NCBI RefSeq assembly: GCF_010550695.1
Contig: NZ_JAAGOB010000007.1
Coordinates: 1 to 64,000 of the forward strand
Length of the DNA stretch: 64,000 nucleotides
Direction: 5' to 3'
Source of the DNA: Phytoactinopolyspora alkaliphila
GTDB taxonomy: Bacteria > Actinomycetota > Actinomycetes > Jiangellales > Jiangellaceae
Shown here: piece after piece, positions 9,928 to 20,617 of the stretch
Layout of the letters: the number at the start of each line of letters is the position of its first letter
Position numbering within the stretch: position 1 is the stretch's first letter
Notes under the pieces: generated by a model
What the model was told of the DNA's origin: nothing
The model's database searches: none
Seen by the model: only the letters and a program-made list of their open reading frames with translations
Translations under genes and position numbers: made by a program

Positions 9928-10209
9928 TCCATTTCACCCCCGCTGAGTCACATTTTTCTGGTGTCGCTGCAGGTCAGCACATGCATGAAAAGTGGCTGTA
10001 GGGGAAACTACTGTCGAAATGCTAAAGTCAATCACTGAAACCGAAGTGAATGGCTCGTCGCCTCTGCCATCGCCACTCCAGGCGGGCAGCCGTCGTCGAA
10101 AGGAGGCGCGCACGCTCGGCCCAGTGCTTCCGGATTGCCGTCCAGGCGCCTATTCCACTCGCTATCCGCCGCCCCCATTCCGCCCGACCTCCTAGGAGGA
10201 CGAGTGTCC
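9928..10209. other. Intergenic leader before the ABC ATPase pair
   Basis: About 280 bases without a gene. The first 110 bases are noticeably AT-richer than their surroundings and probably contain the promoter for the ATPase pair. I see no strong hairpin or clear -35/-10 pair. Confidence 0.35.
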
Positions 10210-11301
10210 ATGGACATTTCCTCTGAGCCGCAGACCCCGGATCGAGCGGACACCAGGCTAGGCGCACCGCTGCTGTCGGTGCGCGACCTCACCACGCGAC
10301 TCGCGGTGGAGAGCGGAGTCGTCCAGGCGGTACGCGGAGTGAGCTGGGACATCTATCCCGGTGAGATCCTCGGCATCGTCGGCGAATCCGGATCGGGCAA
10401 GAGCGTGAGCGTGAGCTCGCTGCTCCGGCTGCTGCCCTCGCCGCCGGCCATCGTGTCCGGCTCGGTGATGTACAACGGCCAGGACCTGCTGACACTGCCC
10501 GAGCGCAGGATGCGGCGGATCCGGGGCCAGGAGATCTCGATGATCTTCCAGGACCCGATGACGTCGTTCAACCCGGTCAAGACCATCGGCAGCCAGATCT
10601 CCGAAGCCATCCGCGTCCATCACCGCTCGGTCTCCCGCCGTGCGGCCCGGGCCAGGGCCATCGAGCTGCTCGGCATGGTGGGCGTGCCCAGCCCGGAGGG
10701 CCGCTACAAGCAGTTCCCGCACGAGTACTCCGGCGGCATGCGGCAGCGCGCTATGATCGCGATGGCGATGGCGAACCAGCCGAAGCTGATCATCGCCGAC
10801 GAGCCGACCACCGCGCTGGACGTCACCATCCAGGCGCAGGTGCTGGAGATCCTCCAGCTCGCGCAGCGTGAGACCAACGCGGCTATCGTGCTCATCACCC
10901 ATGACCTGGGGCTGATTGCCGAGCTGGCCGACCGGGTGCTGGTCATGTATGCCGGCAAGGTGGTGGAGTCGGCACCGGTGATGGAGCTCTTCCGCCAGCC
11001 ACGGCACCCCTACACGCTCAGCCTGCTGGGCAGCCTGCCGCGCCTGGACGTCGAGCTGGACCACCTGGTGTCCATCCCCGGCCAGCCGCCGAGCCTGACC
11101 AACCCGCCACCCGGCTGCGCGTTCTACCTGCGCTGCAAGATGAGCGACGGCCGGGAGAGGTGCTGGCAGGAAGAACCGGCGCTGCTCAGCATCGGCGCCG
11201 GGCCACGCTCCGCGGCGTGCCACTTCTCCGACGAGATGGACGGGCTCGCGCAGTCCGTCACCGAGACGACAGGCGTCGACGTCCGTGCCGGAAAGGAATA
11301 A
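10210..11301 (+). CDS. ABC transporter ATP-binding protein, OppD/DppD type
   Basis: 363 residues. Walker [10 protein letters not shown]-loop [11 protein letters not shown], signature YSGGMRQR, Walker [13 protein letters not shown] and the switch His in ITHD are all intact. The C-terminal oligopeptide-transporter extension with a Cys-rich motif (GCAFYLRC ... RCW ... AACHF) is present. ATG 10210 is chosen: AGGAGG sits ten bases upstream; GTG 10204 is the alternative. It powers import of peptides, oligosaccharides or nickel-type substrates with its partner at 11309. No permease or binding protein adjoins the pair. Confidence 0.9.
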
Positions 11302-11308
11302 GCCCTCT

Positions 11309-12385
11309 ATGACGAGCATCGCGACGGCGCGCCTGCAGAGCACAGGGCAGACGGCCGAGAAATCACCCGGAGGCACGGAGATCCTGCGGGTCGAGGGGCT
11401 CAAGGTCCATTTCCCGGTGACGTCCACCCTGCTGCGCCGCACGCTGGGCACCGTGAAGGCGGTGGACGGCGTCGACTTCACCATCGCGGCTGGGGAGACC
11501 CTCGGCCTGGTGGGGGAGTCCGGCTGCGGCAAGTCCACCACCGGGCTGTCCATCCTCCGGCTGATCGAGCCGACGTCGGGCCGCGTCGTCTTCCGCGGGG
11601 AGGATCTCACTGGACTGAGCAAGCGGAGCCTGCGCCCCTATCGGCGGGAGATGCAGATCGTCCTGCAGGATCCGTACTCGTCGCTGGACCCGCGGATGAC
11701 GGTGCGTTCCATCGTCTCGGAGCCGCTGAAGGTGCACCGGCTGTACAAGGGCGCCGCCCGCGCGGAGCGGGTGGACGAGCTGCTCCAGCTGGTGGGGCTG
11801 CAGCCGGAACACGCCAGCCGGTATCCGCACGAGTTCTCCGGCGGGCAGCGCCAGCGCATCAGCATCGCCCGGGCGCTGGCGCTGGACCCGCAGCTGCTGG
11901 TGCTCGACGAGCCGGTCTCCGCGCTCGACGTCTCCATCCAGGCGCAGGTGGTGAACCTGCTCGAGCGACTGCAGGACGAGCTGTCTCTCGCGTACCTGTT
12001 CGTCGCGCACGACCTGTCGATCGTCAAGCACATCTGCGACCGGGTGGCGGTGATGTACCTGGGCCACATCGTCGAGACCGGGACCACCGACGACGTCTAC
12101 AAGCGGCCGACGCACCCCTACACCCAGGCGCTGCTGTCCGCCGTGCCGATCCCCGACCCCGAACATCGCGGCCGGAAGAAGCGGATCGTGCTGCAAGGAG
12201 ACGTGCCCAGCCCGCAGAACCCGCCCTCCGGCTGCCCGTTCCGGACCCGGTGCTGGAAGGCGCAGGACATCTGCGCCGAGGAGATGCCCGAGCTGATCGA
12301 CCGCTTCGGCCACGGCCATCCCAGCGCATGCCACTTCGCGGCGCCGCCGGAGAACGGCCCGGCGGTGCCCGCGTCCGTCCGGTGA
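11309..12385 (+). CDS. ABC transporter ATP-binding protein, OppF/DppF type
   Basis: 358 residues. Walker [11 protein letters not shown]-loop [15 protein letters not shown], signature FSGGQRQR, Walker [13 protein letters not shown], switch His in VAHD; the C-terminal Cys-rich extension GCPFRTRC ... CAEE ... SACHF is intact. ATG 11309 has GGAAAGGA upstream and follows the OppD-like stop by seven bases, so the two form an operon and presumably a heterodimeric ATPase. A short C-rich hairpin region (12399-12425) separates it from the convergent copper chaperone gene and may end both transcripts. Confidence 0.9.
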
Positions 12386-12811: not shown

Positions 12812-13633
12812 TCAGGCCACGGACATCCGGGCGGACACGTGCCGGGCGGTGAGGACGAGCTGCGGGCCGATGCCCTCGACGTGCCGCGCCAGGCGTGACG
12901 TGGGGCCGGAGACGTTGATCGCGGCCAGGGTCTCCCCGGTGGCGCTGGTGATCGGCGCCCCCACCGACGTGAGCCCGTCCTCGAGCTCGTCGATGGCCAC
13001 CGTGAACCCCCGCGCTCGTTCCTGCCTGATCAGGTCGATGACGCTGCGCATGCTTTCCGGCGCGCGTGGCCCCAGGCCCGCACCCTGGAGATCCCCGTGC
13101 ACGAGGTTCGCGACATCCTCGTCGGACATGTGCAGCATGAGCGCCCGGCCCGACGCGCAGGAATGCAGCGGCGACGTCCGTCCCACCCAGCCTCCGGCCT
13201 GGACGGACTGCATGGAGCTCTCCCTGGCCACCGTGAAGGACCGGTTGCCCTGCAGGACCGAGATGAGGGCCGTCTCCCTGGTACGGGCCACGAGATCGCG
13301 CAACGCCGGCGTGGCCAGCGCGAGCAGCCGCTGATCCCCGGCGCGGCCGGCTAAGTGATACATCCTCCAGCCCAGTCGGTAGGCGCGGGTCTCCTGATCC
13401 TGCTCGAGCAGCCCGGATGCCGCCAGCACCTTGAGCATGCGCGACACCTGGCTGCGCTCACGGCCCAGATGGCGGGCGACCTCGCTGACGGTGAGGGCGC
13501 CGGACGTGCCCCGGTCACCGAAGGCGAGCAGGACCGTGGCCACCCGTCCGGCGGCGGAGGAGTTGAGGTCATCCCCATCGGCCGGCGCTTTGGCGGGGCC
13601 GGTGCGGTCAGTGGTCGCGGCTGTTCTCGGCAT
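12812..13633 (-). CDS. IclR family transcriptional regulator
   Basis: 273 residues. N-terminal winged helix-turn-helix (LTVSEVARHLGRERSQVSRMLKVLAASGLL, about residues 48-77) and a C-terminal IclR ligand domain (SPLHSCASGRALM, GFTVAIDELEDGLTSVGAPI). ATG 13633 has GAAGGGA eight bases upstream. It is divergent from the lyase gene at 13749 across 115 bases, the usual arrangement for local control of a catabolic operon. The intergenic region holds the dyad AGCAA-N6-TTGCT at 13674-13689. Confidence 0.88.
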   Translation of the reverse strand: MPRTAATTDRTGPAKAPADGDDLNSSAAGRVATVLLAFGDRGTSGALTVSEVARHLGRERSQVSRMLKVLAASGLLEQDQETRAYRLGWRMYHLAGRAGDQRLLALATPALRDLVARTRETALISVLQGNRSFTVARESSMQSVQAGGWVGRTSPLHSCASGRALMLHMSDEDVANLVHGDLQGAGLGPRAPESMRSVIDLIRQERARGFTVAIDELEDGLTSVGAPITSATGETLAAINVSGPTSRLARHVEGIGPQLVLTARHVSARMSVA

Positions 13634-13673
13634 GTCTGCCGTCCCTTCGCCGGAAATCTGAGCGTGTTGTGAC

Positions 13674-13689
13674 AGCAATCGTGCTTGCT
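13674..13689. promoter_or_regulatory. Candidate IclR operator between regulator and lyase gene
   Basis: A dyad AGCAA-TCGTGC-TTGCT lies midway between the divergent IclR and lyase starts, next to an AT-rich stretch ending GAAACACA. Position and symmetry suit an IclR dimer site; assignment is by eye only. Confidence 0.4.
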
Positions 13690-13748: not shown

Positions 13749-15083
13749 GTGGAGAGACTGGCCCGCACCGACACTGAGTCGCAGATCTTCTATGCCGATC
13801 AGACCCGGCTCGCGCTGGAGAACTTCCCGCACGGCGGCCGGCGGCTCAGCGACGTGCCCGAGTTCGTCCGGGCCTACGGGCTGGTCAAGCTGGCATGCGC
13901 ACGGGCCAACATCGAGCTCGGTGTGATCGACGCCACCCGCGGGGAAGCCATCGTGGCGGCCGCCAGAAGCGTGGCCGCTTTGGAGCATCTCCCGCAGTTC
14001 CGCACCGCACTGGTGCAGGGCGGCGGCGGCACCTCCAGCAACATGAACGTCAACGAGGTGATCGCGACGCTGGCCAACCGGATGCTCGACGCCTCGGGCC
14101 TACTCGACGGCGACGGCACCCGGGTGCACCCCAACGATCACGTGAACGCGTCGCAGTCCACCAACGACACCTACCCGACGGCCATGTCACTGACGCTGAC
14201 CGAGCGGGCCCAGCCGGCGCTGGCCGCGCTGGCCGGGCTTCGCGAAGCGTTGCTCCGGCAGGCGGAGAAGGGCGGCACGACCCGCCGTCTCGGCCGGACG
14301 TGCCTGCGCGACGCCACGTCGCTCAGTGTCGAGCAGACGCACCACGCCCAGGCGAACATCGTGGGTCACGGGCTTACCGCGCTGCGCGAGAGCATCGACG
14401 CGTTGCGCACCGTGCCGCTGGGCGGAACCGTCCTCGGCACCGGTGCCGGCGCTCCCGGCGGGTTCGCGCGGGTGGCAGTGGCTGGTCTCTCGGCCGAGAC
14501 AGGCCTGGACCTGGCGTCGCCGGCCGACGTGTTCGCCGCGATGGCGCATCCGGACTCACTGGCCACTGTGGCGGCGGCGTGCCGGCAAGCCGCAATCGCG
14601 ATGGCCCGGATCGCCGCGGATCTGCGGTTCCTGTCGGCCGGGCCGGTGGGCGGCCCAGCCGAGGTGGTGCTGCCGGCGCTGCAGAACGGATCGTCGATCA
14701 TGCCCGGCAAGGTGAACCCGGTGATACCCGAGCTCGTCATCCAGCTCAGCTACCGGGTCCGCGGCAACGCCCACACCGCCGAGCTGGCCGTGGCGGCGGG
14801 TGAGCTCGAGCTCAACGTCATGGGGCCGGTAGCGCTGGATGCGCTCCTCACCTGCCTCACCGACATCCGCGATGCCGCGACCTACTTCGCCGAGAAGTGC
14901 ATAGATGGACTTCAGTGGGACCGCCGGGCGACTGAACACGCCTTGAGCGGGTCGCTCGACGGGCTCGTCGATCTGGCGAGTGCGAACGGTTACACGGCCG
15001 CTTCGCGTCAGGCGGAGCCGAAGCAGGCCCCCGTCGTTCCTGGCGATATACGGCTAGGCACGACGCCTTCGAATAGTGAATAG
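13749..15083 (+). CDS. Aspartase/fumarase superfamily lyase with altered substrate pocket
   Basis: 444 residues. Typical superfamily signatures: GTSSNMNVNEV, NASQSTNDTYPTA and GSSIMPGKVNPVIPE (G314-S315-S316 begin the mobile catalytic loop), closest to aspartate ammonia-lyase. The normally conserved GRTHLQDA is GRTCLRDA (Cys185 for His, Arg187 for Gln), and the GTGLNA stretch is GTGAGAPGG, so the carboxylate pocket differs. GTG start, GAAGGGA upstream. These enzymes eliminate an amine or water from a succinyl skeleton to give fumarate or an analogue. First gene of the catabolic operon controlled by the divergent IclR; probably acts on an N-substituted aspartate or another beta-amino acid (inference). 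Confidence 0.78.
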   Translation: MERLARTDTESQIFYADQTRLALENFPHGGRRLSDVPEFVRAYGLVKLACARANIELGVIDATRGEAIVAAARSVAALEHLPQFRTALVQGGGGTSSNMNVNEVIATLANRMLDASGLLDGDGTRVHPNDHVNASQSTNDTYPTAMSLTLTERAQPALAALAGLREALLRQAEKGGTTRRLGRTCLRDATSLSVEQTHHAQANIVGHGLTALRESIDALRTVPLGGTVLGTGAGAPGGFARVAVAGLSAETGLDLASPADVFAAMAHPDSLATVAAACRQAAIAMARIAADLRFLSAGPVGGPAEVVLPALQNGSSIMPGKVNPVIPELVIQLSYRVRGNAHTAELAVAAGELELNVMGPVALDALLTCLTDIRDAATYFAEKCIDGLQWDRRATEHALSGSLDGLVDLASANGYTAASRQAEPKQAPVVPGDIRLGTTPSNSE

Positions 15084-15144: not shown

Positions 15145-16824
15145 ATGAAGCCTCGATCGGCCGCAACACGAGCGACGTCTGCCGGTGCCGCGCTAATCCT
15201 GTCGGCCATGGTCACGGTCTCGTGCACCACCGGTCCGCCGCCGCAGGGCACGGACGGCGACGGCGAGGCGAACGTCGCCGACGTCGAATCCCTCACGCCT
15301 GTGCAACCCTTCGAGTTCATCACCACCACCACGGCCGACAACCCGCAGCGTTTCGAGGTCGGCAGGATCATCGTGGAGTCCTGGGAGCAGCTCGGCATCC
15401 CGGTGGAGCTCGCGACGTACTCGCCGGACGAGATGGCACGGCGGGCGTTCAGCACCAAGGAGTACGACACTTACCTGATCGAGTACAGCCCCACCGTCGA
15501 ACGCCTCGACCCCAACGACCTGCTGAGCAGGTTCTACTCCGGCAACGCCGGAGACGACGGGAGCAACCTCTCCGGCTATCAGAACCCCGAGTTCGACGAG
15601 CTGTACGACAAGCAGCTCGTCGCCGTGGACCAGGAGAGCCGCGCGGACCTCGTCCGCCGAGCCCAGGAGCTGGTGGCCGAGGACGTGCCGGTCGGCCTTC
15701 TGCTGCACCCCACGTATGTGGGCCCGTACAACGCCGAGGATTGGAGCGGGGCCGTGGACGCCGCCGAGGCGCCGGCCTACAACTTCTGGAGCCTGCTGGA
15801 GATGACGCCGACGGGGGACAGGGCGACGCTGGTCACGGCCACCATCGCCGGCACCAACACGCTGAACCCGCTGGTGGCCACCGGGATAGAGGACCGGCTT
15901 CCGGTGTCCTACATCTACGACTCGCTGGTGCGCATCGGCCCGGGCGCCACCCCCGAACTGTGGGCGGCGGAGTCCGTGGACGTGGACGGCACGGTGGTCA
16001 CCGTGACCCTGCGCGACGGGATGGCCTTCCACGACGGGACGCCGGTCACCGCGGAGGACGTCGCCTTCACCTTCCAGTACATGAAAGAGCACGAGGCGCT
16101 CGCCTTCGCCAGCCGTCTCGCGCAGGTGGACGACGTCTCGGTCGACGGCGACCAGGTGGTGTTCGAGCTGGCACAGCCGAGCGCCGCGTTCGAGACCGTG
16201 GTTCTCGGCTCGGTGCCCATCCTCCCGCGGCACATCTGGGAGGAGATCGACGATCCCCTCGGCTACGACAACGCCGAGCCGGTCGGATCCGGCCCGTTCG
16301 AGTTCGACTCACAGCGGCGAGACGCCGAGCTGCGGATGACGGCCAACGAGGAGCACTTCAGCCCACCCAACGCCGACGGGCTGGTGCTGACGGTCTACGG
16401 CAGCCGGGATGCCATGATCGGTGCCCTGGAGACGGGCGACGCCGACCTGCTCAGCGTCCCGCTCACCATCCCGCAGGCCGCCCGCTTCGACGGAAGCGCC
16501 GACGTGGGCGTCATCGAGACCGGCGGATACGGCTGGCTCGGCGTCCACTACAACATGCGCAAGCCTCCGTTCGACGACGTGCGGTTCCGGCGTGCGCTGT
16601 CGATGCTGATTCCCGCGGAGGACGTCATCGACATCGTCTACGACGGCTCGGGCGAACCGGCCGGATCGATCATCGCGCCGGTGCTGCCGTGGAACAACCC
16701 CGACGTGGCGCCGCTGCCCTACGATCCGGACGGCGCCCGGGCCGAGCTGGAGGCCGCCGGGTACGTCATCGACGCAGGCACGCTCTACTACCCGCCGGAC
16801 CACCAGCCGGAAGGCGACGAGTAG
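15145..16824 (+). CDS. Extracellular solute-binding protein, family 5, circularly permuted
   Basis: 559-residue lipoprotein: basic N-terminus, hydrophobic core, lipobox ending at Cys27. Family 5 proteins bind peptides, opines, nickel or sugars. Here the order of halves is reversed. Residues about 48-212 hold what is normally the C-terminal lobe (EVGRIIVESWEQLGIPVEL, YSGN, LSGYQNPEFDELYD, RAQELVAEDVPV). Residues about 227-555 hold what is normally the N-terminal lobe (TNTLNPLVAT, YDSLVRI, LRDGMAFHDGTPVTAEDV, PVGSGPFEF, FDDVRFRRALSM, YDPDGARAELEAAGY). The protein ends LYYPPDHQPEGDE, where the normal protein would run on into the C-lobe. Followed by its permease genes. Confidence 0.9.
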   Translation: MKPRSAATRATSAGAALILSAMVTVSCTTGPPPQGTDGDGEANVADVESLTPVQPFEFITTTTADNPQRFEVGRIIVESWEQLGIPVELATYSPDEMARRAFSTKEYDTYLIEYSPTVERLDPNDLLSRFYSGNAGDDGSNLSGYQNPEFDELYDKQLVAVDQESRADLVRRAQELVAEDVPVGLLLHPTYVGPYNAEDWSGAVDAAEAPAYNFWSLLEMTPTGDRATLVTATIAGTNTLNPLVATGIEDRLPVSYIYDSLVRIGPGATPELWAAESVDVDGTVVTVTLRDGMAFHDGTPVTAEDVAFTFQYMKEHEALAFASRLAQVDDVSVDGDQVVFELAQPSAAFETVVLGSVPILPRHIWEEIDDPLGYDNAEPVGSGPFEFDSQRRDAELRMTANEEHFSPPNADGLVLTVYGSRDAMIGALETGDADLLSVPLTIPQAARFDGSADVGVIETGGYGWLGVHYNMRKPPFDDVRFRRALSMLIPAEDVIDIVYDGSGEPAGSIIAPVLPWNNPDVAPLPYDPDGARAELEAAGYVIDAGTLYYPPDHQPEGDE

Positions 16825-16861: not shown

Positions 16862-17839
16862 GTGAATCTTCTCAACTACGCGGTGAAGCGCCTGGGCTTC
16901 ATGCTCGCGACTCTGCTGGGCGTCGTGACCTTCACCTTCGTTCTGGTGCGGGCCGCCGGTGACCCCGATCAGGTGATGATCGGACCGGATCTCGACCCCA
17001 GCGTCCGCGAGACATTGCGGGAGGCGTACGGCCTCGACGAGTCGCTGTTCACGCAGTACGTCAAGTTCATCGGCAACGCTGCCACCGGGGACCTCGGCAC
17101 GTCGTTCCAATACCGGGCACCCGTGGCGGACGTGCTGGGCGAGAAGCTGGTCAACACGCTGTTGCTCCTGCTGCCCGCCTTGGCCCTGGGCATGGGGCTG
17201 GGCATGGTGCTCGGTGTGCTGGCGGGCGCGTTCTGGGGCCGGCCGCTGGACGCGGTGATCACTCGGTTCGCGCTGCTGGTGCGCGCCGCGCCGCTGTTCT
17301 GGGTGGCCACCCTGGTGCTGCTGCTCTTCAGCTACACGCTGGGCTGGTTCCCGTCCGGCGGGATGTTCGACCCCGGCTCCGGCGCGGGAGAGAGCTTCAC
17401 CGCTCGGGTGCTGTCGCTGGAGTTCCTGCGGCGGCTGGTGCTTCCCCTGGGTGTGACCGTGCTGCTGATCATGGTGTGGCCGTTGCTGACCATGCGCACC
17501 GCCATGCTCGATGTGATGAAGCAGGACTTCATGCAGGTGCTGGAGGCTGCGGGCATGTCGCGGACGCGCATCCTGTTCCGCCACGGCGCCCGCAACGCGC
17601 TCCTGCCGGTGGTGAGCCTGATGCCGTCCATGATCGGATTCCTCGTCGGCGGCCAAGTGGTGGTCGAGACGGTGTTCTCGTGGCCCGGCATGGGCCGGGA
17701 GCTCGTGGCGTCGGTGGATGCCTTCGACTACCCGGTGCTCCAGGGTGGCTTCCTGCTGACCGCCACCGTGGTGATCGTCGTGGGGGTCCTGGCCGATATC
17801 GCCTACGCGTACCTCGACCCGCGAGTGAGGCTGACATGA
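16862..17839 (+). CDS. ABC transporter permease, DppB/OppB type
   Basis: 325 residues, about six membrane helices (first at residues 12-30; others about 100-123, 135-160, 190-212, 250-275, 290-312). The binding-protein-dependent permease EAA-type motif appears as EAAGMSRTRILFRHGARNA, and VVVETVFSWPGMGRE is typical of DppB. GTG start with a GGGGG site. It lies 37 bases after the binding protein and overlaps the next permease by four bases. It forms the pore with the DppC partner. Confidence 0.92.
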   Translation: MNLLNYAVKRLGFMLATLLGVVTFTFVLVRAAGDPDQVMIGPDLDPSVRETLREAYGLDESLFTQYVKFIGNAATGDLGTSFQYRAPVADVLGEKLVNTLLLLLPALALGMGLGMVLGVLAGAFWGRPLDAVITRFALLVRAAPLFWVATLVLLLFSYTLGWFPSGGMFDPGSGAGESFTARVLSLEFLRRLVLPLGVTVLLIMVWPLLTMRTAMLDVMKQDFMQVLEAAGMSRTRILFRHGARNALLPVVSLMPSMIGFLVGGQVVVETVFSWPGMGRELVASVDAFDYPVLQGGFLLTATVVIVVGVLADIAYAYLDPRVRLT

Positions 17840-18759
17840 CAGCACCGACGCCGCTGGACCAGGCGCTGCCGGCAACGTCCGGTACCGACGAGCCGCCCGA
17901 CCTCCGCCCGCCCAGCTCCTGGAAGCTGGTGTGGAGGGACCGCCGGGCGCGGGCCGGAGCCGTCGTTATCCTGCTCTTCGCGCTGGTGGCGCTGCTGGCC
18001 CCGCTGATCGCGCCGTACCATCCGCTGGAGCGGCTCGTCGGGCCGGACGGTGACCTGCTGCGGCTGCAGCCGCCGTCGCTGGAGCATCCGTTCGGGACCT
18101 CGAACTACGGCCGGGACCTGTTCAGCCAGGCCATCTGGGGTACTCGTCGTACTTTGCAGGTGGGCGTGATCGCCGCCGTGGTCGCGGTGGTGATCGGCAC
18201 CAACATCGGCCTGATCGCCGGGTTCGCCGGCGGCTGGGTGGAGCAGGTGCTGATGCGGCTGAACGACGCCGCGCTGGCCCTGCCGTTCGTCCCCCTGGCG
18301 ATCGTGCTGATCGGCACGCTGGGCCGCAGCGACGTCGTCCTCATCATCGCGATCGCCCTGGTGTTCTGGCGAATACCGGCCCGGGTGGTGCGCGCGGAGG
18401 TGCTCGTGCTGAAGGAGCTGGGCTTCGTGCGCGCGGCGACCTGCGGCGGCGCGACCCGCCGGCGCATCCTCTACCGGCAGATCGCCCCGAACATCCTCCC
18501 GTACGCCTTCCTCTACGGCATGCTGCTCACCGCCGAGGCGGTGATCGCCGAGGCGACGCTGAGCTTCCTCGGCTTCGCCCCGCGAGACGCACTGTCGCTG
18601 GGAACCATCATGTTCGACGCCTTCAGCTCGCAGCAGATCAGGCAGGCGTGGTGGTGGCCTTTGTTCCCGGGCCTGATGATCATGGCCTTCGTCGTCGCCG
18701 TCTCGTTGCTCAGCGAGGCCTACGAGCGGCTCCTGTCCCTGGAAGGGGTGGACCGATGA
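17836..18759 (+). CDS. ABC transporter permease, DppC/OppC type
   Basis: 307 residues with a proline-rich cytoplasmic N-tail, a first membrane helix near residues 41-62, the LEHPFGTSNYGRDLFSQ motif that marks DppC permeases, further helices, and the EAA-type loop RAATCGGATRRRILYRQIAPN. A late motif EATLSFLGFA is also family-typical. ATG overlaps the upstream stop (ATGA), and its own stop overlaps the next ATPase in the same way, so translation is coupled across the operon. Confidence 0.92.
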   Translation: MTAPTPLDQALPATSGTDEPPDLRPPSSWKLVWRDRRARAGAVVILLFALVALLAPLIAPYHPLERLVGPDGDLLRLQPPSLEHPFGTSNYGRDLFSQAIWGTRRTLQVGVIAAVVAVVIGTNIGLIAGFAGGWVEQVLMRLNDAALALPFVPLAIVLIGTLGRSDVVLIIAIALVFWRIPARVVRAEVLVLKELGFVRAATCGGATRRRILYRQIAPNILPYAFLYGMLLTAEAVIAEATLSFLGFAPRDALSLGTIMFDAFSSQQIRQAWWWPLFPGLMIMAFVVAVSLLSEAYERLLSLEGVDR

Positions 18760-19595
18760 CGTCCCTGCTGGAAGTAGCGAACCTGACCGTGCGCTTCGCC
18801 CGTGGCGACGGCGGCGCGGCGGTGAGCGACGTGTCGCTGAGCGTGCACGAAGGCGAGACCCTCGGTGTCGTCGGGGAGTCCGGGTGCGGCAAGACCACCA
18901 CCGCCCGTGCGGTCCTGCGGCTGCTCCCCCGGGGGACAGCGGTGAGCGGGTCGGTCCGGTTCGGCGGCCGCGATCTGCTGGGCATGCCGAAGCGAGAGCT
19001 TCGCCGGCTGCGGTGGCACGAGCTGGCCCTGGTGCCGCAGTCGGCCATGAACTCCCTCGATCCAGTCCGCACAGTGGAGAGCCAGTTCATCGAGATCATC
19101 CGGGTGCACGTCCGCTGCTCCCGGCGCGAGGCCCGTCGCACGGTGCACGCCGCGCTCGCCGACGTCGGCATCGATCCGGACCGCGGATCGTCCTATCCGC
19201 ACCAGTTCAGCGGCGGCATGCGCCAGCGAGCGCTCATCGCGATGGCGACGGTCCTGCGGCCGCGGCTGCTGATCGCCGACGAGCCCACCACCGGCCTCGA
19301 CGTGATCGTTCAGGACCAGGTGCTGCGGACCCTGGAGCAGGTGCAGCAGCGGCACGGCCTCGCGGTGCTGCTGGTGACGCACGACCTGGGCGTCGTCGCC
19401 GAGATGTGCGACCGGATAGCCGTCATACGTCAGGGAGAGATCGTGGAGGTGGGAACGGTGTCCGAAGTGATCCTGAATCCCCAGCACGAGTACACCGCCC
19501 GGCTGATCGCCGCGGCCGGGCATCATGCGCAGACGACGGCCGAAGAACGCGCGGTGGCGCTCGCGTCGACACCGGGCACGGAGCGAGACCGATGA
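18756..19595 (+). CDS. ABC transporter ATP-binding protein, DppD type, shortened
   Basis: 279 residues, shorter than the usual 320-350. Walker A GESGCGKTT, Q-loop VPQSAMNSLDP, signature FSGGMRQR, Walker B LLIADEPTTGLD and switch His in VTHD are intact. The usual C-terminal Cys-rich oligopeptide extension is absent: after HEYTARLIAAA the protein runs into a short Ala/Glu-rich tail. Four-base overlaps on both sides. It pairs with the ATPase at 19592, which does keep the Cys-rich extension. Confidence 0.9.
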   Translation: MTSLLEVANLTVRFARGDGGAAVSDVSLSVHEGETLGVVGESGCGKTTTARAVLRLLPRGTAVSGSVRFGGRDLLGMPKRELRRLRWHELALVPQSAMNSLDPVRTVESQFIEIIRVHVRCSRREARRTVHAALADVGIDPDRGSSYPHQFSGGMRQRALIAMATVLRPRLLIADEPTTGLDVIVQDQVLRTLEQVQQRHGLAVLLVTHDLGVVAEMCDRIAVIRQGEIVEVGTVSEVILNPQHEYTARLIAAAGHHAQTTAEERAVALASTPGTERDR

Positions 19596-20617
19596 GCGCC
19601 GGCAACGGCACGGCCGGCATGCCCGCGGTGTCGGCCGACGACGTGAACGTGGAGTTCGGCACCGCGCGCGGCCTGGCGGCGCTGCTGGCCGAGCGTCGGA
19701 TCCGGGTCCTCGAAGACGTCAGCTTCGCCATCCAGCCGGGGGAGATCCTCGGCCTGGGCGGGGAGAGCGGCTCCGGGAAGAGCACCGTCGCGGGTGTGCT
19801 GTGCGGCCTGGTCGGCGTGAGCGCGGGCCAGGTGCGGGTGGGCGGACAGGACGTCACGCACTTCTCGCACCGCGAATGGCGCGGGGTTCGCACCGAGATC
19901 CAGCTGATCTTCCAGGATCCGTTCGAATCCCTGAACCCGCAGTTCACCGTCTTCGCCTCGGTCGCCGAGCCCTTGGTGTCGCTCGGCCTGTGTGCCAAGG
20001 ACGAGCTGGTGCCCCGGGTGATCGATGCCCTGGACAAGGCCGAGCTGAGGCCCCCGTCGGCCTACCTGAATCGTCGCCCCACGTCGTTGTCCGGCGGCGA
20101 GCGGCAGCGGGTCGCGATCGCCCGGGCGCTCGTCGTGAACCCGTCGGTGCTCGTCGCCGACGAGCCGGTCTCGATGCTGGACCCCACCACCGCCGTCGAG
20201 ATCACCTCGCTTCTGCGCCGCCTCGCCGACGATCTGGGCGTGGCGATCCTGCTGATCTCGCACGACCTGAAGCTGCTGGGCGGTGTCTGCGACCGGGTCG
20301 GCATCATGTACCTGGGGCGGCTGGTGGAGACCGGCTCGGCGTCGGATGTGCTCCGGCACGCCAAGCACCCGTACACCAAGCTCCTCGTGTCCGCCGTTCC
20401 CAACGTCGATCCGCGGCTGCGCCGGCCCAGAGTGGTGCTCAAAGGCGCACTGCCGTCTCCCGCTCACCGTCCGTCGGGGTGTCCCTTCCATCCTCGCTGC
20501 CCCATCGCCGATGGTGGCGGCTGCGCCACGACGGTCCCGGAGTTGACCGGACAGGCGCATCGATGCGCCTGCCACCGCGCCGGTGAGATACCGGACGCAG
20601 AGAGGAGTTACCAGTGA
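19592..20617 (+). CDS. ABC transporter ATP-binding protein, DppF type
   Basis: 341 residues. Walker [11 protein letters not shown]-loop IFQDPFESLNPQFTV, signature LSGGERQR, Walker B VLVADEPVSMLD, switch His in ISHD, and the C-terminal Cys-rich segment GCPFHPRC ... GGGCA ... RCACH. The N-terminus has an insertion (LAALLAERRIRV) between strand one and Walker A. ATG overlaps the DppD stop, and its stop overlaps the aldehyde dehydrogenase GTG start, tying transport to catabolism in one transcript. Confidence 0.9.
   Translation: MSAGNGTAGMPAVSADDVNVEFGTARGLAALLAERRIRVLEDVSFAIQPGEILGLGGESGSGKSTVAGVLCGLVGVSAGQVRVGGQDVTHFSHREWRGVRTEIQLIFQDPFESLNPQFTVFASVAEPLVSLGLCAKDELVPRVIDALDKAELRPPSAYLNRRPTSLSGGERQRVAIARALVVNPSVLVADEPVSMLDPTTAVEITSLLRRLADDLGVAILLISHDLKLLGGVCDRVGIMYLGRLVETGSASDVLRHAKHPYTKLLVSAVPNVDPRLRRPRVVLKGALPSPAHRPSGCPFHPRCPIADGGGCATTVPELTGQAHRCACHRAGEIPDAERSYQ

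Follow-up and report, generated by a model that had tools for sequence, protein, structure and literature searches.

A circularly permuted family 5 solute-binding protein in Phytoactinopolyspora alkaliphila and its relatives in bacteria and haloarchaea

Natural circular permutation of importer binding proteins has been described before. Tp0684 (MglB-2) of Treponema pallidum is a naturally permuted glucose-binding lipoprotein, proposed as Type Ic / Cluster Bc and with relatives in other bacteria; it is a Cluster B sugar binder in which the first three strands of one lobe have moved to the end (PMC4990184). The CPSARST paper lists circular-permutation relations among the glycine-betaine-binding proteins 2B4L, 1R9L and 1SW1, found by structure at under 24% identity (PMC2395249). 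Here we analyse a 64,000-nucleotide stretch of P. alkaliphila (contig NZ_JAAGOB010000007.1, positions 1 to 64,000, hereafter the window), in which one gene encodes a protein of the family 5 solute-binding type with its two parts in reversed order. We put at roughly 0.9 the probability that this is a genuine family 5 solute-binding protein, probably a functional one, and that its present order goes back to a single, ancient circular permutation of the gene.

With the described members of family 5 (PF00496: DppA, OppA, NikA and AppA) the window protein shares the sequence family, the content of both parts and OppBCDF-type neighbouring genes, whereas the order of the two parts is swapped. The window protein and Tp0684 have in common the natural circular permutation of an importer's binding protein (a lipoprotein in Tp0684, a putative one here) and the presence of relatives in other bacteria, but Tp0684 belongs to another family, and in the window protein about a third of a larger protein has moved to the front. 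By sequence homology the window protein is not of the Tp0684 type (cluster B glucose/galactose), with PF00496 the only Pfam family listed for it at E up to 1 and the PDB chains listed all of family 5 types. The glycine-betaine binders likewise share a circular-permutation relation among importer binding proteins, but they belong to other families (PMC2395249), whereas the rearrangement in the window protein is plain in sequence. The titles and abstracts found in the open-licence literature report no permuted family 5 protein. Natural permutation of binding proteins being already known, what appears new here is the family 5 case, the surprise being its wide spread and likely single origin.

The swapped order emerges from profile and sequence comparisons. 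Firstly, the protein matches PF00496 with an E value of 1.7e-68, scoring 231.9 bits where the cut-off is 32.4, and the best stretch aligns its residues 270-546 with profile positions 2-284 of 368. Secondly, in a phmmer comparison with PDB sequences a single dipeptide-binding protein chain, 8z1y_F, is matched in two stretches: its residues 30-368 fall at query 228-540 (independent E value 1.2e-21) while its residues 386-518 fall at query 66-201 (1.4e-7), and the order in the window protein is therefore swapped. Finally, hhalign against a profile of linear family 5 relatives aligns query 224-543 with linear positions 9-335 (E 3.6e-85) and query 55-218 with positions 349-514 of 520 (E 5.5e-30), so that together the two matches span almost the whole family domain, once. 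The usual family 5 order (first two thirds, then last third) is absent, and the protein is therefore classed as a permuted variant of the PF00496 family. A profile built from permuted sequences matches 112 PDB chains, and in the best 60 of these the best stretch starts at or beyond profile position 217, in the second part. The open reading frame (ORF), its coordinates and the lipoprotein-like start are as the first-pass annotation gave them, and the permuted order that it claimed is borne out by both two-part matches. The segments that it placed at residues 48-212 and 227-555 are corrected to 55-218 and 224-543, and its picture of two whole lobes exchanging places does not hold: it is the last third of the ancestral protein that has changed places with its first two thirds. 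A bridge of about 5 residues connects the old C-terminus to the old N-terminus, and the alignments place the cut in the loop after an AGY motif, not between the lobes. This breakpoint presumably lies within domain III of OppA/DppA.

The N-terminus is hydrophobic and leads by eye to Cys27, with position -3 non-canonical against the lipobox consensus; all 8 aligned permuted proteins have a Cys at about the same position, but none is obvious in the alphaproteobacterial ones. At the other end, 0-20 residues separate AGY from the end of the protein in the 8 aligned permuted proteins, and the tails vary in length among archaeal and proteobacterial members. The motif ER-LDP (residues 119-123 of the window protein) recurs in permuted sequences, its Arg being kept in 20 of the 23 with letters at that position. 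In the phmmer alignment residue 119 pairs with residue 408 of the 1dpp chain, which we take to be the Asp that binds the amino group of the ligand. By eye, haloarchaeal permuted members (L173, L177, L181-L184 and L186) have twin-arginine-like starts followed by a Cys, and alphaproteobacterial permuted members have signal starts without an obvious lipobox.

The window protein is not a singleton and has relatives of the same order. Colinear full-length relatives at 39-69% identity occur in four other genomes of its family, where 5 of 22 genomes (the window's own included) carry six permuted genes. A draw of 396 genomes from the phylum yielded 11 with matches at 1e-50, three of which carry permuted genes: the genome that contains the window and two from other families; in the two classes to which these belong, 4 of 66 and 1 of 24 genomes carry permuted genes, adding three new genomes. 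Altogether the phylum contributes 11 permuted genes, spread over 10 genomes and three classes. All 10 genomes encode WhiB (PF02467), which among 14 control genomes occurs in Corynebacterium glutamicum alone, so that the phylum is probably Actinomycetota. An order test of 97 distinct family 5 ORFs returned 11 permuted, 77 linear, 9 undecided and no odd arrangements, with breakpoints alike in the 10 permuted genes aligned. Search thresholds were 1e-60, 1e-50, 1e-45 or 1e-80 depending on the genome set. No further permuted genes were found in 393 genomes of the class (1e-60) or 286 of the phylum (1e-80), with the top 3-4 candidates per genome scored; the 396-genome draw likewise scored the best 3 or 4, and none of these three draws can prove absence. 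The listing for the genome of the window itself has 35 matches, and 20 ORFs from 19 other loci were order-tested (16 linear, 4 undecided). A scan of genome contigs gave only two weak loci, one linear and one undecided; viral contigs held no permuted relative, and no phage record had a single place spanning 80% of the query.

Plasmids extend this distribution. A tblastn search of 72,556 plasmid records with the window protein found 58 in which one place covers 80% of the query or more. Among the 60 best records listed, 46 match in permuted order as a single piece over no less than 80% of the query, and several of these are near-identical strains. Fourteen loci were fetched, picked for diversity, 13 single-piece and one two-piece, and all 13 single-piece genes are permuted in the order test. 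They come from Halobacteria (Halalkalicoccus, Halobaculum, Natrinema, Haladaptatus, Haloprofundus, Natrialba and Haloarcula) and Alphaproteobacteria (Microvirga, Ketogulonicigenium, Nitratireductor, Roseomonas, Neorhizobium and Maritalea). The other 10 two-piece records were not counted as permuted because the fetched two-piece match, from Cytobacillus, proved linear. When the Halalkalicoccus protein was re-ordered and used as the query, 7 of the tested permuted genes were matched in two pieces and 5 tested linear genes in one. The 11 annotated permuted plasmid genes are labelled only 'ABC transporter substrate-binding protein'.

The recurrence bears directly on whether neighbouring gene pieces were joined in the wrong order during assembly or annotation, for which the sole point is that the window comes from a 33-contig assembly. 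The same order in 11 genes of 10 genomes, with alike breakpoints in the 10 aligned, and in 13 of the 14 fetched plasmid genes, some from records titled complete sequences, reduces such an artefact to a vanishing likelihood. An assembly join inside the gene, which the first-pass annotation had named as what would overturn its claim, is thus excluded because homologues in independent genomes share the permuted order.

Phylogenetic trees were built from sequences recast into one common order, so that gene order itself gave no signal. In the combined tree of 86 rows, from which 11 of the 97 ORFs were left out (9 undecided, 2 fragments), a branch with support 97 divides the permuted sequences from the rest; such a branch recurs with 46 rows (support 99/97) and with 55 rows, where 24 permuted and 31 linear sequences lie on opposite sides of one branch (Shimodaira-Hasegawa-like approximate likelihood ratio test 99). 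The linear rows are a chosen subset in the 46-row (35) and 55-row (31) trees, and the latter took in linear controls from Halobacteria, Alphaproteobacteria, Deinococcota and Bacillota. Trees of the separate parts speak to a fusion of two different binding proteins, in which the C-terminal third and the N-terminal two thirds came from different parents. This fusion has no direct support. In both part trees of the 86-row set the permuted sequences make up one clade (support 84 in the N-part tree and 97 in the C-part tree), and the linear clades around L036/L076 and L055/L057 share its side of the deepest split (for the C part, in the portion of its tree listed); with the C-part tree of the 55-row set also giving one clade at 98, two parents are very improbable.

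Several independent permutations, in the window's phylum, Alphaproteobacteria and Halobacteria, are also improbable. In their favour are the long branches and the N-part tree of the 55-row set, which places one long-branched row (Haloarcula) outside the permuted clade and so needs 2 changes. An approximately unbiased test on this part does not reject one clade of all 24 (p 0.52), the likelihood being slightly higher with the group held together. The combined tree and the C part of the same set each recover one clade, the breakpoint is alike across the groups, and linear controls from the same lineages (one haloarchaeal, two alphaproteobacterial) group with the linear sequences. The best reading would be one origin followed by spread, and because bacterial and archaeal permuted sequences are intermixed in the tree, this spread would include transfer between the two domains. 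Comparing with linear homologues, as the first-pass annotation had proposed, favours one old event over a recent, local one. We consider it fairly probable that these genes form a permuted class of family 5 binding proteins derived from a single ancient event, now present in at least two bacterial groups and in haloarchaea and unrecognised under the generic substrate-binding label. Circular permutations are usually modelled as duplication, fusion and trimming. The likeliest route here would be a tandem duplication followed by fusion and trimming of the outer ends: the short bridge would then link the old C-terminus to the old N-terminus, and the loop after AGY would have supplied the new ends.

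The permuted gene is encoded with two permeases and two ATPases, as in family 5 clusters (Table 1), the permeases following directly as the first-pass annotation had noted. The gene was compared in 11 contexts, one from the window and ten from fetched regions 8-19 kb long. In 10 of them its cluster includes an OppB-like permease, a contig end truncates the remaining one, and none of the 11 was found to hold a linear family 5 binding protein. Permease and ATPase genes lie 3' of the permuted gene in 11 of 11 annotated plasmid loci, once after a small ORF. By plain Nei-Gojobori counting, four closer pairs have ratios of nonsynonymous to synonymous substitution rates (dN/dS) of 0.14-0.20, and three distant pairs have ratios of 0.30-0.47. 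The earlier suggestion that the gene is likely functional therefore draws support from purifying selection, crudely measured, and from clustering with importer genes. The permuted protein would capture its solute outside the membrane and hand it over to the adjacent OppBCDF importer.

Several observations, besides the placement of Haloarcula, weigh against the reading of a single, functional permuted lineage. A single-sequence AlphaFold2 model has a mean predicted local distance difference test score (pLDDT) of 36.6, and a model from a 16-row alignment reaches a mean pLDDT of 53.4 with a predicted template modelling score of 0.36; its best Foldseek matches are family 5 proteins, but with template modelling scores of about 0.3 over some 300-380 alignment columns. 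The rows and the trimming of fragment ends in the 16-row alignment were chosen for in-register fit (116 of 245 row subsets aligned as expected, and one was used), and the model is not independent evidence of permutation because of that choice. The two-lobed fold is an inference from sequence, by which the folded chain would be the usual two-lobed binding protein. Furthermore, the dN/dS estimate is crude, the case for function comes from gene context only, and one permuted gene, in genome G761, is broken up by a transposase ORF. At that locus (L130, 8795-12004) the ORF is of the Mutator family (PF00872) and occupies 10179-11447, and importer genes persist downstream. A gene in decay, or one whose product serves outside transport (as a sensor, say) and not as a working importer subunit, would fit the interrupted copy and a ligand narrowed to candidate classes only. 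The dN/dS values of 0.14-0.47, the standing of the permuted protein as the sole family 5 binding protein found in the 11 contexts (10 with OppB-like genes) and the importer genes that follow in every annotated plasmid locus make either case highly improbable.

Table 1. Features of the permuted gene and its cluster in the window
Feature	Position	Strand	Basis
Circularly permuted family 5 solute-binding protein, putative lipoprotein, 559 aa	15145..16824	+	ORF, PF00496, permuted DppA alignment
Putative signal peptide ending at lipobox-like Cys27 (TVSC)	15145..15225	+	sequence read by eye
New low-complexity spacer, residues 28-54	15226..15306	+	residues 29-54 unmatched by linear profile
Ancestral C-terminal third, now first, residues 55-218	15307..15798	+	hhalign
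Junction of old C-terminus and old N-terminus, residues 219-223	15799..15813	+	gap between two hhalign matches
Ancestral N-terminal two thirds, now second, residues 224-543	15814..16773	+	hhalign
New C-terminal tail after AGY, residues 544-559, ...LYYPPDHQPEGDE	16774..16821	+	aligned permuted proteins
OppB-type permease	16862..17839	+	PF00528 E 7.6e-35
OppC-type permease, start approximate	17839..18759	+	PF00528 and PF12911
OppD-type ATPase	18753..19595	+	PF00005
OppF-type ATPase, start approximate	19589..20617	+	PF00005 and oligo_HPY
Lyase_1 family (aspartase/fumarase-like) enzyme, upstream in cluster	13749..15083	+	PF00206 E 1.3e-58; NCBIfam matches below cut-off
Regulator resembling BhcR/PcaR/KdgR models, divergent	12812..13678	-	NCBIfam matches below cut-off

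The cluster also encodes an aldehyde dehydrogenase closest to succinate-semialdehyde dehydrogenase and an oxidase scoring above the N-methyl-L-tryptophan oxidase cut-off, the sole match listed to clear its cut-off; the divergent regulator we take to be of IclR type. Together the enzymes of the cluster suggest a small nitrogen-containing acid or peptide-like candidate ligand. Neighbours of other permuted genes include hydantoinase/oxoprolinase, creatininase, D-aminoacylase and M20, M28 or M81 peptidases. At loci L173, L175, L177, L178 and L182 (haloarchaea and Alphaproteobacteria) creatininase, hydantoinase/oxoprolinase, D-aminoacylase or metallopeptidase genes lie nearby, a hint of cyclic amide or peptide-like ligands. 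The enzymes encoded near permuted genes thus make small amides, amino-acid derivatives or peptides plausible ligands, perhaps varying by clade. A threonine-synthase-like pyridoxal phosphate enzyme (PF00291) lies near permuted clusters in two classes (L122, 14052-15341; L130, 3805-5130). In the window, a second OppD/OppF-type ATPase pair (10135-12385) follows a glycoside hydrolase family 20-like gene, and between 9501 and 28000 all OppB/OppC-like and family 5 genes found belong to the permuted cluster.

The case would provide a natural permutation within a large binding-protein family, with many living examples and with linear relatives as controls, and so a means to test what topology and tether position do to folding, docking and transport. 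It also offers the design of family 5 biosensors a permutation site that nature has already used, and it illustrates how order-blind annotation hides a widespread architecture. The lipid anchor would now sit at a former internal loop and, if so, its move would alter the tethering of the protein and perhaps its docking on the importer.
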